Source of the DNA: Flavobacteriales bacterium
GTDB taxonomy: Bacteria > Bacteroidota > Bacteroidia > Flavobacteriales > Schleiferiaceae
NCBI GenBank assembly: GCA_017795025.1
Contig: CP051243.1
Coordinates: 124,001-188,000, forward strand
Direction: 5' to 3'
DNA length: 64,000 nt
Shown here: positions 18,117-24,362 of the stretch, in pieces
Layout of the letters: every line of letters starts with the position of its first letter
Position numbering within the stretch: position 1 is the first letter of the stretch
The notes under the pieces: model-generated
Databases searched by the model: none
What the model was told of the DNA's origin: nothing
What the model saw: the letters and a program-made list of their open reading frames with translations, nothing else
Made by a program: the position numbers and the translations under genes

Positions 18117-19409
18117 CTATAAACCGAAGGCTGACTTAACATCTTCCACACGGTCCAATTTTTCCCAGGTAAACAGTTCTACTTCCATTTCCTTTCGTTC
18201 GATACCAATGCCATCGGGGCGCTCGAAGCTGGCTTTTACCACTTCATTTTTACGTCCCATATGACCGTAGGCCGCCGAGGAAGAATAAATAGGATTTCGC
18301 AGTTTAAGGTTCTTTTCGATCAAACCGGGACGCAAATCAAAAAGCTCGCGCACTTTGGCCGCAATTTGACCGTCATTCAGATTCACTTTGGCGCTGCCGT
18401 AAGTGTCCACAAAAACACCCATGGGCTCCACAACTCCAATCGCGTAAGAAACCTGCACTAAAATTTGATCGGCTACACCGGCAGCCACTAAATTTTTAGC
18501 AATATGTCGAGCGGCATAAGCAGCGGAGCGGTCTACTTTACTAGGATCTTTTCCACTAAAAGCACCACCGCCATGAGCACCTTTTCCACCGTAGGTATCT
18601 ACGATGATTTTCCGTCCGGTTAGGCCGGCATCTCCATGTGGTCCGCCAATCACAAATTTCCCGGTAGGATTGATATGGTATTTGATATCCTCTCCGAATA
18701 AAGCTTGCAGCTCTGGGCTTAATTGCGCCTTTACCTTGGGAATTAAAATCTTGATGATATCCTCCCGAATTTTACTGAGCATTTGCTCATCAGCTTGTTC
18801 CTGACTAAGGCCATTTCCAGCTTGCACAAAATCATCGTGTTGGGTAGATACAACAATCGCCTCAATGCGTTGCGGCTTGTGGTCATCATCGTACTCAATA
18901 GTTACCTGGGCCTTGGCATCAGGACGTAGGTAGCTAATCTCCGAACCATCGCGACGTAAGTCGGCAAGGGTTTGTAAAATACGATGACTAAGGTCTAAAG
19001 CCAAAGGCATGTAATTGGCTGTTTCATTAGTAGCATAGCCAAACATCATTCCTTGGTCTCCGGCACCTTGCTCTTCGATATTGCCGCGATCTACACCTTG
19101 GTTAATATCCTGACTTTGCTCGTGAATGGCCGAAAGGATTCCGCAAGAATTCCCTTCAAACATGTAGGCACTTTTGGTGTAGCCGATTTTATTAATCACG
19201 TTACGTGCAATCTGCTGCAGGTCGAGATAAGTTTCGGATTTAACCTCGCCGGCTAATACTACCTGACCAGTAGTAACCAAAGTTTCACAGGCTACTTTTG
19301 AGTTGGGGTCAAAGGCCAAAAAATGATCGAGGATGGCATCCGAAATTTGATCGGCAATTTTATCGGGGTGTCCTTCAGAAACGGACTCAGAGGTAAATAG
19401 GTAAGACAT
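18117..19409 (-). CDS. metK: S-adenosylmethionine synthetase
   Basis: Makes SAM from methionine and ATP. It is 430 residues, the long Bacteroidota form, against about 384 in E. coli. Seen: the N-terminal [20 protein letters not shown], the methionine-site loop [32 protein letters not shown], and [19 protein letters not shown] with the phosphate-binding residues. The ATG at 19409 begins the conserved first strand, so the start is sure. It is a single-gene unit with its own terminator. Its leader holds a SAM-II-type riboswitch, so it is probably repressed by its own product. Confidence 0.98.
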
Positions 19410-19463
19410 AGCTTCTTTGAGTTTTGTAATCTAAGAGAGGTGGCTAATTGCTTACCGAGAAAC

Positions 19464-19516
19464 ACTGGTTTAGCATTTTTTAGGGTGGTTGCAATCAGCC
19501 AAATTTTTCCACTCAG
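19464..19516 (-). ncRNA. SAM-II-type riboswitch in the metK leader
   Basis: Read on the minus strand, the leader contains the class II order of elements. The P1 arm GTGG is at 19512-19509. Loop 1 has ATTTGGC and ATTGCAA. The second P1 arm CCAC is at 19488-19485, followed by an A-rich strand TAAAAAATG and then GCTAAA at 19474-19469. These are the invariant pieces of the metA-type (SAM-II) pseudoknot as I know it. The second helix (loop 1 CTG with the CAG after GCTAAAC) is short. Loop 1 (19501-19492) is also complementary over 10 bases, with one G-U pair, to CAATTAGCCA at 19450-19441. That gives a competing stem upstream of the metK start, a plausible switch. SAM-V is an alternative class with a similar core. 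Confidence 0.8.
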
Positions 19517-19520
19517 GCGG

Positions 19521-19528
19521 CAAATGTA
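19521..19528 (-). promoter_or_regulatory. -7 promoter element of metK
   Basis: TACATTTG on the minus strand matches the Bacteroidota -7 consensus TAnnTTTG exactly. It places transcription start at about 19515, so the RNA would begin at the riboswitch aptamer. No convincing -33 TTG lies at the usual distance. Confidence 0.6.
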
Positions 19529-19608
19529 GAAAATTTTCAAAGTGATGCGATAGGGCTTTGATTCTTTCTTGGCATCGACTTTGAGTATTTGAAAGTAAAA
19601 CCCCTAAA

Positions 19609-20526
19609 ATGCGAATACCCCGGTTCTTTATTTTCTTCTTACCCCTACTCACTTCCTGTATAACCTTTCAAGCGGTGCCCCCACTTCCCCAAAATCAAAT
19701 TAGCAGTCCTCCCTACCCAGTAAATCCCCAGGTTTTTGAAATAGATGGTAAACTACCGAAGCAGACCCTTGTCGCTTTATCGAACGAGGAAATTAATACG
19801 GAAGGCAATTTGAAGGCCAACCTAATCACAGAGCTGCATGCTCGATCTTTGGACGGCGCTATACTTTTACACCGCGATTATGCCAGTCATGAGGCTGGCA
19901 GAACCCTAGCTTCCGGAGGGGTCGAATACTATACTAAGCACACGCACTTTGCCGAGTATATTCCATTTATGTATCTCGAAAGTATAGAGGACCGGGCCAT
20001 TCTCGATTCTATTGTTTTAGAAATTGAAGGTCCAGCACAAAGTAAGCAGGAGCTGTACTTTTTATTTGATTGGCAAGAGCAACTGCGCTATATACCTGCT
20101 CAATTGGAGTCGGAACACTTTACTGCATTGGCTATCCAACCTTGGTTCTTTTTACGCCAAACCGGCTCCGCTTGGTTCAAGGCCCATTCGAACCATCCAA
20201 ACTTTAATCAGCGACGCTATCAAAGCGGACCTACAGCCCTTCGATACGTTCCATCTTTAAATCTTAATAATGTGTTTTACCTCCGTAAGCCCGGTGTTGA
20301 TTATAAACTTTGGATATCCTTAGATGAGACCCAGCGCTATCGCCTGGACTCCCTTTCTATTCAAGGCCGTGTAGCTCAGGTGAAGCGAATTGATTTCTTT
20401 GGTCGACTCGTCAGCGAAAGCATAGAGATGCCCAGTGGCCTTACTTATACATTTCGTTATTTCTATAAACGGAAGGAGGACGTACCGGCAAATTGGATTA
20501 TTGAAGCCAAGAGCTTGCAACATTAG
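19609..20526 (+). CDS. Lipoprotein of unknown function
   Basis: A 305-residue protein with a lipoprotein signal (MRIPRFFIFFLPLLTSC, lipid Cys17). After a Pro-rich linker (PPLPQNQISSPPYPVNPQ) the mature part is mixed alpha/beta with many aromatic residues (FAEYIPFMYLESIEDRA, LYFLFDWQEQLRYIPAQLES, RLDSLSIQGRVAQVKRIDFFG, LTYTFRYFYKRKED). I recognise no family. It lies between divergent metK and the metH operon, and its last codons contain the -33 element of the metH promoter. Nothing links it to methionine beyond position. Confidence 0.7.
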   Translation: MRIPRFFIFFLPLLTSCITFQAVPPLPQNQISSPPYPVNPQVFEIDGKLPKQTLVALSNEEINTEGNLKANLITELHARSLDGAILLHRDYASHEAGRTLASGGVEYYTKHTHFAEYIPFMYLESIEDRAILDSIVLEIEGPAQSKQELYFLFDWQEQLRYIPAQLESEHFTALAIQPWFFLRQTGSAWFKAHSNHPNFNQRRYQSGPTALRYVPSLNLNNVFYLRKPGVDYKLWISLDETQRYRLDSLSIQGRVAQVKRIDFFGRLVSESIEMPSGLTYTFRYFYKRKEDVPANWIIEAKSLQH

Positions 20527-20545: not shown

Positions 20546-20552
20546 CTTTATA

Positions 20553-20651
20553 CTTATCCAGAAAGACGGAGGGAATGGGCCCGGTGATGTCTTAGCAACC
20601 CCTTAGGGCGGGTGCTACTTCCCACCTTGTATTCTTACAAGGGCAGATGAG
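20553..20651 (+). ncRNA. SAM-I (S-box) riboswitch
   Basis: All core elements are visible in order. P1 is CTTATC (20553-20558) with GATGAG (20646-20651). P2 with kink-turn is AAGAC...GTCTT around GGAGGGAATGG. The invariant AGCAACC is followed by P3 (CCC TTA GGG), GGTGCTA, then TTCCCACC, and P4 CTTGT-loop-ACAAG. It controls the metH/metF operon, which starts 61 bases after P1. I see no strong terminator between P1 and the ATG (only a short CGTTT/AAACG stem near 20655-20667), so control of translation or a non-canonical platform is possible. Confidence 0.95.
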
Positions 20652-20712
20652 AGGCGTTTCGAAAACGATTCCATTTCTAAAATCTTTCGGGGTAGTTGCT
20701 AGTAAAAGCACT

Positions 20713-21720
20713 ATGACCAAAAAAGAAATTTTCGATTTACTGGATAGCCGTATTCTGGTTTTGGATGGCGCTATGGGAACTATGATTCAGCGTTATAAAC
20801 TCGAAGAAAAGGACTATCGTGGCGAGCGTTTTGCCGACTGGAAGAGCGACCTCAAAGGGAACAACGACCTCCTCAGCCTCAGTCAGCCAGAAATAATTAA
20901 GGATATACACCGGGCCTACCTCGAAGCTGGAGCCGATATTATTGAGACCAATACCTTCAACAGCACCCGTGCATCCATGGCAGATTACGGGATGGAGGAT
21001 TTGGTGCCCGAAATTAACCGCGCTGCGGCAAGAGTTGCGAAGGAGGCTGCCCTTGAGTATACCTCGGAAAATCCAGCGAAACCGCGTTTGGTGGCAGGCT
21101 CCATCGGGCCAACCAGTAAGACGGCAAGCTTAAGTCCGGATGTAAACAATCCCGGCTTTCGAGCCATCGATTTCGATACCCTAGCCGAGAACTATTATGA
21201 ACAGGCCAAGGCTTTAATAGAAGGTGGAGCCGATGTTTTATTGGTCGAAACGGTTTTTGACACGCTTAATGCCAAAGCTGCCCTTTTTGCCCTGCAAAAC
21301 TTATTCGATGATTTGGAGAGGGAGTACCCCATTATGGTTTCCGGAACGATCACCGATGCTTCGGGGCGCACCTTATCTGGGCAAACCACCGAAGCTTTTT
21401 TAACCAGCATTAGTCATGTTCCGCTCCTATCTATCGGACTTAACTGCGCCCTAGGTGCCGACCAATTACGGCCTTATGTGCAAACCCTCGCACATGCAGC
21501 GCCTTTTGCTGTATCAGCCCATCCCAATGCCGGTTTACCCAATGCTTTTGGTGAATACGATCAAGGTCCCGAAGAAATGAAGGCCTTAATTAAAGAGTAT
21601 CTCGAACGCAATATTGTGAATGTCATTGGGGGCTGTTGTGGTACCACTCCAGAGCATATTCGGGCTATTGCTGATTTAGTCCAAGACTTTGAACCTCGCG
21701 AAATTCCTAGCCTAGTATGA
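20713..21720 (+). CDS. metH: Methionine synthase, homocysteine-binding subunit (split MetH, first part)
   Basis: A 335-residue protein equal to the first domain of cobalamin-dependent methionine synthase. It binds homocysteine on zinc for methyl transfer. I chose the ATG at 20713 because an upstream in-frame ATG (20647) lies in the 3' strand of riboswitch P1. Seen: [10 protein letters not shown] near the start, ETNTFNST, and the three zinc cysteines, Cys245 in GLNCALG and Cys308-Cys309 in [10 protein letters not shown]. The stop and the next start share ATGA (21717-21720), so the two halves of the enzyme are translationally coupled. Confidence 0.95.
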
Positions 21721-24362
21721 GATTATCGGGTTTAGAACCACTTGTAATTTCCTCCGCCTCCAATTTTGTGAATGTTGGTGAACGCACCAATGTTACGGGT
21801 TCTAGGAAATTTTTACGCCTTATAAAGGAAGATCGCTACGACGAAGCCTTGGAGGTAGCTCGCGACCAAGTGGAGGGTGGTGCCCAAATTTTGGATGTGA
21901 ATATGGATGAGGGAATGCTCGATGGTAAGGCCGCCATGGTGAAGTTTTTACACCTCATTGCGGCTGAGCCTGATATCGCGCGAATTCCGATTATGATCGA
22001 CTCTTCCAAATGGGAAATTATTGAAGCGGGCTTGAAGTGTGTGCAGGGGAAGTCGGTGGTTAACTCCATAAGCCTAAAAGGAGGTGAAGAGGAATTTATT
22101 CGCCAGGCGCGATTAGTTCGACGTTACGGTGCGGCCGTAATTGTGATGGCTTTTGACGAAGAGGGGCAAGCCGATACCTATGCCCGACGCATCGAAATTT
22201 GCGAGCGATCCTACCGGATACTGGTGGATAAGGTGGGCTTTCCTTCCGAGGATATCATTTTTGATCCGAATATTTTTCCAGTAGCCACTGGGATTGAAGA
22301 ACATCGACGCAATGCCTTGGATTTCTTCGAAGCCACCCAATGGATCAAAGAAAACTTACCCGGCGCCAAAGTTAGCGGCGGGGTAAGCAATGTGTCCTTC
22401 AGCTTTAGAGGCAATCAGTTAGTACGTGAAGCGATGCATAGTGCCTTTCTTTATCATGGCATTCGTCATGGTATGGATATGGGTATCGTAAACCCTAGCA
22501 TGTTGGAGGTGTACGAAGAAATTCCGGCGGAGCTCCTAGAAAGGGTAGAAGACGTTTTACTAGACCGCAGGGACGATGCTACCGAAAGGCTGCTAGAGTT
22601 TGCGGATACCGTTAAAGGGGAGGCCCGCAGTAAGGAGAAAGATTTAGCCTGGCGTGACTTAGCGGTAGAAAAGCGGATTGAGCATGCATTGGTAAAAGGT
22701 ATTGTTGATCACATCGAAGCGGATGTAGAAGAGGCGCGACCCCAGTTTGAGAAGGTTCTTGGTTTAATCGAGGGCCCCTTAATGGATGGTATGAATGTGG
22801 TAGGAGACTTGTTTGGATCCGGAAAAATGTTCTTACCTCAAGTGGTGAAATCGGCTCGGGTGATGAAACGAGCGGTAGCCTATTTAGAACCGTATTTGGA
22901 GGCCGAAAAGGCCCTAAGCTCCGATGTGAGCAAAAAGGGTAAAATCTTACTGGCCACTGTTAAGGGGGATGTGCATGATATTGGAAAAAACATTGTGGGG
23001 GTTGTTTTGGCCTGCAACAACTTCGATATTGTGGACCTTGGCGTGATGGTACCCCTGCAAGAAATAATTAGCAAGGCCAAGGAAGAGGAGGTCGATATTA
23101 TTGGCTTGAGCGGATTGATTACCCCTTCATTAGATGAAATGATTGAGGTGGCGAAGGAGATGGAAAGGCAGGAAATGGATATTCCCCTGATGATTGGCGG
23201 GGCGACTACTTCCCGTGCCCATACGGCCGTGAAGATTTTTCCAGAATACTCCCAGATTGTAGTGCATGTAAATGATGCTAGTCGAAGTGTGCCCATTGCA
23301 CAAGCCTTGGCCAATAAGGAAAGTCGAGCTAAGATTAAGGACTCCATCGCCGAAGAATACACCGATTTAAGAAGCAAGTATCTAAATCGTTCTGCCGCCA
23401 AGAATTTAATCAGTTTGGCAGAAGCCCGCGAGAACGCCTTTAAGATAGATGACAGCCAGAAAGCTGAAGCTCCTAAGGTTTTGGGTCGGCAGGAGCCCTT
23501 AAATTTTGATCTAAAGGTTTTAAGGGAATACATCGACTGGACGCCCTTCTTTCAAACTTGGCAATTGCATGGTAAATATCCGCGCATCTTAAACGACGAA
23601 GTTGTGGGCAAGGAAGCCCAAAAGTTATTTGCCGACGCTCAAGAGATGCTGGATAGCATTGTTGAGGAGAATTGGTTGGAAGCCAAAGGAGTATTCGGGA
23701 TTTGGGAAGCGCAGCGCTCGGGGGCAGATGATATTACCCTCCTTGAAGCGGGTCATGAGCGGGCTCGGTTTTATAGTCTGCGCCAGCAAACGAAAAAGGC
23801 CAAGGCCGCCGCGAATCTGGCTTTAGCCGATTTTATTAGTGCCGAGAATGATCACCTGGGCTGTTTTGCTGTTTGTGCCGGATTGGGGATAGAGTCGAAA
23901 CTGAAGGAGTTTGCGGCAAATCACGATGATTACTCCGCGATTCTATTAAAGGCTTTGGCAGATAGATTGGCGGAAGCGGCGGCTGAGTATTTACATGCCG
24001 AGGTCCGTAAAAAGTACTGGGCTTATTCCGACGATGAAGAGCTCAGCAATCAAGAATTAATCGCGGAGGCCTACCGCGGTATAAGACCGGCTCCCGGCTA
24101 CCCGGCTTGTCCAGACCATCTAGAGAAAATCACCATTTTCGAATTATTACAAGCGGAGGAAATAGGCATGGGCTTAACCGAGAGCTTAGCTATGAATCCT
24201 GCCGCCAGTGTATCGGGTTATTATTTCGGTCATCCTCAAGCGAAATACTTTGGCTTGGGAAAAATTAATCGCGACCAGGTCGAAGACTATGCCCAACGCA
24301 AAGGCATCAGCCTTAAGGAAGCGGAGAAATGGCTTCGTCCAAATTTGAATTACGATTTATGA
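21717..24362 (+). CDS. metH: Methionine synthase, folate/cobalamin/activation subunit (split MetH, second part)
   Basis: An 881-residue protein carrying the remaining MetH domains. The pterin-binding barrel starts with [14 protein letters not shown]. The cobalamin cap and Rossmann domain hold [11 protein letters not shown], where His420 is the lower cobalt ligand, plus [10 protein letters not shown] and [16 protein letters not shown]. The C-terminal reactivation domain includes [15 protein letters not shown] for SAM binding. Together with the first part (335 residues) the length matches the about 1,230 residues of single-chain MetH, so nothing is missing. Splitting after the homocysteine domain is known in Bacteroidota. 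The stop shares ATGA with metF. Confidence 0.96.

Follow-up and report, generated by a model that had tools for sequence, protein, structure and literature searches.

A SAM-II leader of metK in a Flavobacteriales bacterium and its candidate strand-exchange platform at the start codon

In the 64,000-nucleotide stretch of Flavobacteriales DNA analysed here (the window), metK is preceded by a SAM-II aptamer, and loop 1 of this aptamer is complementary to a strand in the linker that leads to the gene. The leader is probably a riboswitch in which, according to the predicted folds, the linker strand would be exchanged between loop 1 and the start codon, with translation of metK turned off by SAM. 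Computation supports the aptamer, the loop 1 partner with its covariation and, within this genus, an alternative fold that covers the AUG. The scheme, in which we infer that SAM is bound, that it acts as the OFF signal and that control is translational, would run as follows. When SAM is scarce, the linker strand (19451-19441) would be held by loop 1, the AUG would be open and SAM synthase would be made. When SAM is plentiful, loop 1 would be locked into the pseudoknot and the strand would be freed to pair around the AUG (19412-19400), so that ribosomes could not start. The pseudoknot, which is transcribed first, would presumably form first, and the strand would then capture the AUG. The product of metK makes SAM, and control of the SAM-OFF type is thus to be expected.

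Bacteroidota are described as lacking Shine-Dalgarno sequences, and the structure of the start region as tuning initiation in F. johnsoniae, in the available part of one report (PMC6847099). How the SAM-II leaders of this phylum control metK thus needs explaining, and the present proposal is specific and testable. If it is true, a translational riboswitch can work on access to the start codon alone.

The metK leader and its aptamer

The metK gene, encoding methionine adenosyltransferase, lies at 18117-19409 on the minus strand (TIGR01034, 503.5 bits against a cut-off of 309.4). The initial annotation had recognized a class II core in its leader, and the Rfam model agrees: RF01726 matches 19460-19518 of the minus strand with 61 bits (gathering score 44), covering model positions 1-60 of 60. 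Of the two models that the annotation had named for a search, SAM-II thus scored above its gathering score and SAM-V below it; identity with SAM-V was rejected. In the window, SAM (SAM-I) was the only other class to reach gathering. By its model score the aptamer is an ordinary SAM-II member, which would be expected to bind SAM. Read from the sequence, helix P1 is formed by GTGG (19512-19509) and CCAC (19488-19485), and the pseudoknot P2 by CTG of loop 1 (19498-19496) and CAG (19467-19465). The fold energy of the whole leader is unremarkable (z -1.51; 14 of 200 shuffles equally good).

Just before the aptamer, at 19521-19528 on the minus strand, the sequence reads TACATTTG, which matches TAnnTTTG, given as the -7 consensus of Bacteroidota in the available parts of two reports (PMC9723704, PMC7366714). 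Of 109 related leaders, 99 have such a box in the 40 nt that precede P1, against 3.2 expected from shuffles. Given this position and frequency, transcripts probably begin at the aptamer, a few bases downstream of the box. At the other end, 50 nt separate the aptamer from the AUG in the window, and 47-112 nt do so across the 49 nearest leaders.

The leader is common. SAM-II was found in 49 of the 59 nearest genomes (own genome included), with metK downstream of all 49 matches, in 64 of the 88 genomes of the family and in 266 of the 395 sampled from the order. For comparison, 221 loci were collected, from which 182 SAM-II-metK leaders were extracted by pattern and reduced to 109 at 80% similarity. 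This sequence set draws on 61 of the 64 family matches. The matches in the 266 genomes of the order were sampled through 30 listed loci and 40 places picked by hand for genus diversity, together with loci fetched earlier. The own-family subset (36 leaders) and the list of Bacteroidales were likewise assembled by hand. The pattern yielded no SAM-II-metK leader at 39 of the 221 loci, namely L163, which is truncated by a contig end, and 38 of the 80 loci named MetK; 30 of these 39 metK loci, negative by pattern search, served as the SAM-II-negative control set.

Among the 109 leaders, a strict search found the 3-bp pseudoknot partner in 73 (65 with CTG/CAG, six with CCG/CGG and two with TGT/ACA) and no partner in 36. 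When loops were swapped between leaders, the partner was found in a mean of 52.3 and a maximum of 61 over 300 trials.

In six aptamers of the set (L048-L049, L067, L086, L087 and L102), a stretch much longer than that of the window separates P1 from GCTAAA and seems capable of forming an additional hairpin.

Loop 1 and its partner in the linker

In the window, the loop 1 segment TGGCTGATTGC (19501-19491, minus strand) is complementary to GCAATTAGCCA (19451-19441, minus strand), the putative anti-aptamer or switch strand, over 11 bp with one G-U pair. The 10-bp pairing that had been described at this place therefore exists, with coordinates that were one base off: its core joins GGCTGATTGC (19500-19491) to GCAATTAGCC (19451-19442), and the pair 19501/19441 extends it to 11. 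All ten tested pairs of this helix have a probability of 1.0 in the unconstrained fold. The duplex of loop 1 with the linker is predicted at -18.3 kcal/mol, the shuffle mean being -9.2, and its p value lies at the floor of the test (1/301, 1/501).

Related leaders lend support to this pairing partner. With 500 dinucleotide shuffles per leader, pairing of the own loop 1 with the own linker reached p <= 0.05 in 46 of the 109, and the combined p was 2e-40; a decoy made from the reversed loop reached that level in seven, with a combined p of 0.59. No significant loop 1 partner was found individually in the remaining 63 leaders by this test. Because the leaders are related, the combined p values overstate their independence; in a stricter set of 32, ten leaders were significant with a combined p of 2.7e-10, as were three decoys. 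SAM-II-negative metK leaders compared with the consensus loop 1 showed no clear enrichment (2/30, combined p 0.09). The signal was found in five of the 19 leaders on the Bacteroidales list and in 41 of the other 90.

A swap test bears on covariation, which the initial annotation had proposed as a check. After removal of row and column effects, the own loop 1 fits its own linker 2.22 kcal/mol better than do the loops of other leaders, a value reached in 0 of 20000 permutations, while the reversed-loop decoy gave 0.29 (202 of 5000). Loop 1 and the linker thus co-vary. The annotation had proposed a candidate switch in which loop 1 cannot serve the aptamer and the linker at once, and had named as refuting it the lack of a model match in either class or of a loop 1 partner in relatives. 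Neither result was obtained, since SAM-II scored above gathering and relatives carry a partner that co-varies with loop 1. Exact partner sequences follow the class of the loop. GCAAGC is found in 5 of 26 leaders with a GCTTGC loop and in 0 of 78 with a GATTGC loop, whereas GCAATY is found in 1 of 26 and 21 of 78, respectively. Similarly, CCAAAT accompanies ATTTGG in 6 of 24 leaders and ATTTGA in 1 of 57, and TCAAAT occurs in none of the former and in 14 of the latter. The register of the pairing on loop 1 thus differs between leaders.

The alternative fold over the start codon

Folding with and without the pseudoknot had also been suggested. With the aptamer barred from pairing, a crude model of the SAM-bound state, the linker strand pairs instead across the start codon, 19456-19449 with 19408-19400 and 19446-19443 with 19412-19409. 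The predicted helix comprises 12 pairs between the strand 19443-19456 and the start region 19400-19412 (both minus strand), and all three bases of the AUG (19409-19407) are paired in it. Seven of the twelve strand bases belong to the anti-aptamer, and the predicted ON helix (19501-19491 with 19451-19441) and OFF helix (19456-19443 with 19412-19400), the two folds of a platform as prediction gives them, are thus mutually exclusive. The 62-nt segment of linker and start region (19459-19398) forms the same helix when folded alone (z -1.92; 8 of 200 shuffles equally good). A pairing of GGTAAG (19456-19451) with CTTACC just inside the coding start (19405-19400) had been noticed before, with correct positions, and had been thought able to hide the ATG. 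It does form in the fold with the blocked aptamer; however, it is only part of the start-region helix, in which the anti-aptamer strand also pairs with the AUG.

In six genus-mates this start region is closed as well, partly by different pairs, and their linkers differ. The GGTAAG:CTTACC pairing is kept in the sister genome G004. It is shortened to GTAAG:CTTAC in G002 and G003, which add CTTCTT with AAGAAG; G001 and G005 use CTTCTTTAA with TTAAAGAAG, and G006 uses CATACTGC with GCAGTATG. The shuffle p of the start-region helix is 0.090 in the window and 0.004-0.028 in the six genus-mates. When the aptamer is blocked, the start region (-15 to +12) is predicted to become less open in all seven members of the genus, with a fall from 0.63 to 0.36 in the window. 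When a shorter coding part was folded, the change in the start region was at the floor of the test (p 0.024) in five of the seven, with p 0.073 in L036 and 0.146 in L032. With this shorter part, the AUG is mostly paired already without blocking in L024 and L032 (openness 0.14 each), and in L032 its openness rises to 0.29 on blocking. Within this genus, the models make the start-codon step likely.

Across the 109 leaders, the start-region signal is present but weaker than that of loop 1. The linker pairs with the start region at p <= 0.05 in 21 leaders (combined p 4.6e-8), against 8 for the reversed decoy (p 0.13); among SAM-II-negative metK leaders the count is 1 of 30. The two-state change in openness exceeds that of shuffled linkers for the AUG (p 0.002) and the start region (p 0.0005), and for the AUG also in the 36 leaders of the own family (p 0.004). 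The raw change in openness over the 109 leaders is not significant (p 0.15), nor does openness in the blocked state alone fall below shuffles (p 0.14 and 0.23). The start-region swap test is only partly specific, with -1.84 for the real sequences and -0.85 for the reversed decoy, both at 0 of 10000 permutations. Overlap between the segment that binds loop 1 and the one that binds the start region is at chance level (71 against 69.4 by random placement). The exact GGTAAG:CTTACC pairing was rejected as a general element, the value of the swap test on coding sequence only being reached in 843 of 10000 permutations. Outside this genus, the start-codon step is plausible and as yet unproven.

Two other outputs would leave the anti-aptamer real. 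In the first, pairing of loop 1 would act as an antiterminator and SAM would cause intrinsic or Rho-dependent termination in the linker or early coding region. Putative terminators in many proteobacterial SAM-II leaders, described in the available portions of two reports (PMC1273637, PMC2258182), lend it some weight, as do terminator-like hairpins at about twice the expectation (10 of the 109 leaders, 5.3 in shuffles). However, the same scan left 99 leaders free of such a hairpin, and the sole terminator-like site within 19200-19900 is on the plus strand. An intrinsic terminator as the general output was rejected on these counts, and we regard transcriptional output as a whole as unlikely. In the second, the linker strand would open the aptamer while the start-region helix would be incidental outside a few leaders, control being exerted at another step, such as mRNA stability or ribosome standby in the linker. 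The weaker start-region signal and its partly specific swap test fit such an arrangement, and SAM-II of S. meliloti is reported, in the part of the source available, to stabilise its mRNAs at high SAM (PMC9373788). Yet six of the seven members of the genus have a start-region helix at p <= 0.028 and the openness change is larger than with shuffled linkers, which makes this second output improbable. Finally, a chance origin of the loop 1 complement is strongly disfavoured and can hardly be credited: it would suit the 63 leaders with no individually significant partner, but not the combined p (inflated by relatedness, and still 2.7e-10 in the stricter set), the swap test (0 of 20000), the near-chance result of the reversed-loop decoy in the shuffle test or the 2 of 30 among SAM-II-negative leaders.

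The strand-exchange platform may extend beyond this genus. In a wider reading, which we put forward tentatively and hold to be somewhat on the doubtful side, metK SAM-II leaders across Flavobacteriales and relatives would share a platform independent of Shine-Dalgarno sequences. The linker strand would have been re-evolved many times against the loop 1 registers GATTGC, GCTTGC, ATTTGA and ATTTGG, toggling between aptamer and start codon. As part of the same reading, some leaders would use their aptamer as a decoy start site, since in L002 and L024 the A-rich AAUGCUAAA segment of the aptamer and the real AUG region can each pair with the strand. Several linker motifs exceed expectation in the 109 leaders, namely TTTAG (34 vs 14.8 in shuffles), TTTAGC (13 vs 6.4), AGCAT (14 vs 7.8), GCATT (14 vs 9.8) and TTAGCAT (6 vs 1.1). 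These counts hint at pairing with the 3' pseudoknot strand and speak only weakly for start-codon mimicry.

A second linker element, TTTAG or TAGCATT (e.g. in L002, L010 and L145), can pair with the 3' pseudoknot strand AATGCTAAA. Pairing of that strand with the linker is found in 20 of the 109 leaders (combined p 2e-12) and is weaker than that of loop 1. This element may help to open the pseudoknot when SAM is absent.

Known systems and neighbouring elements

The aptamer is already known and the predicted strand-exchange platform would be a new variation on known ones, the evidence being computational throughout. With SAM-II of RF01726 the leader shares the aptamer sequence, the fold model and the placement before a gene of the SAM pathway. 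A current review assigns direct occlusion to SAM-II, its pseudoknot containing the ribosome-binding site (PMC10907184). Here, in contrast, 50 nt lie between the aptamer and the AUG, and the link would be made by a separate strand. The metA and metZ leaders of S. meliloti also carry SAM-II, and translation of metA is controlled from a distance. Their predicted output, however, is a terminator for metZ and, for metA, a Shine-Dalgarno sequence that lies in the pseudoknot, and the available part of that paper shows no exchange of a strand from loop 1 to the AUG (PMC9373788). The add adenine riboswitch, described as a sequester/antisequester system in the review passage (PMC10907184), likewise has one strand with two alternative partners, one on the aptamer side and one in the start region. 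It differs in its aptamer and in its sign, since the ligand opens the start; in the metK leader the AUG region alone would be hidden, with no Shine-Dalgarno site.

For Bacteroidetes, 'SAM-II long loops' (RF01726) were listed together with marine samples by Weinberg and colleagues (Weinberg et al., 2010; PMC2864571, available part). Corbino and colleagues, in the portion available, described putative terminators in many SAM-II leaders and also a few occurrences of SAM-II in the Bacteroides group (Corbino et al., 2005; PMC1273637). In the open-access literature searched, which gives partial coverage, no paper dealing with the expression platform of SAM-II in Bacteroidota was noticed; two further papers (PMC12121620 and PMC13273304) do not treat it in their available parts.

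The window also contains a SAM-I riboswitch before metH/metF, at 20551-20653 (RF00162, 75.6 bits). It lies on the plus strand, opposite to that of the SAM-II aptamer and roughly 1 kb away from it. Of the 59 nearest genomes, 44 have both classes; Barrick and Breaker, in the available part of their report, list no species with both SAM-I and SAM-II (Barrick and Breaker, 2007; PMC2258182). Between the two riboswitches, an ORF of 305 amino acids (19609-20526, plus strand) reads away from metK and has no NCBIfam match at 1e-5. Methionine synthase is encoded by two adjacent ORFs at 20647-24362 (plus strand), of which 20647-21720 holds the N-terminal part and 21717-24362 the remainder. The first ATG listed for the former ORF is overlapped by the SAM-I match, and the real start of this ORF thus probably lies further in.
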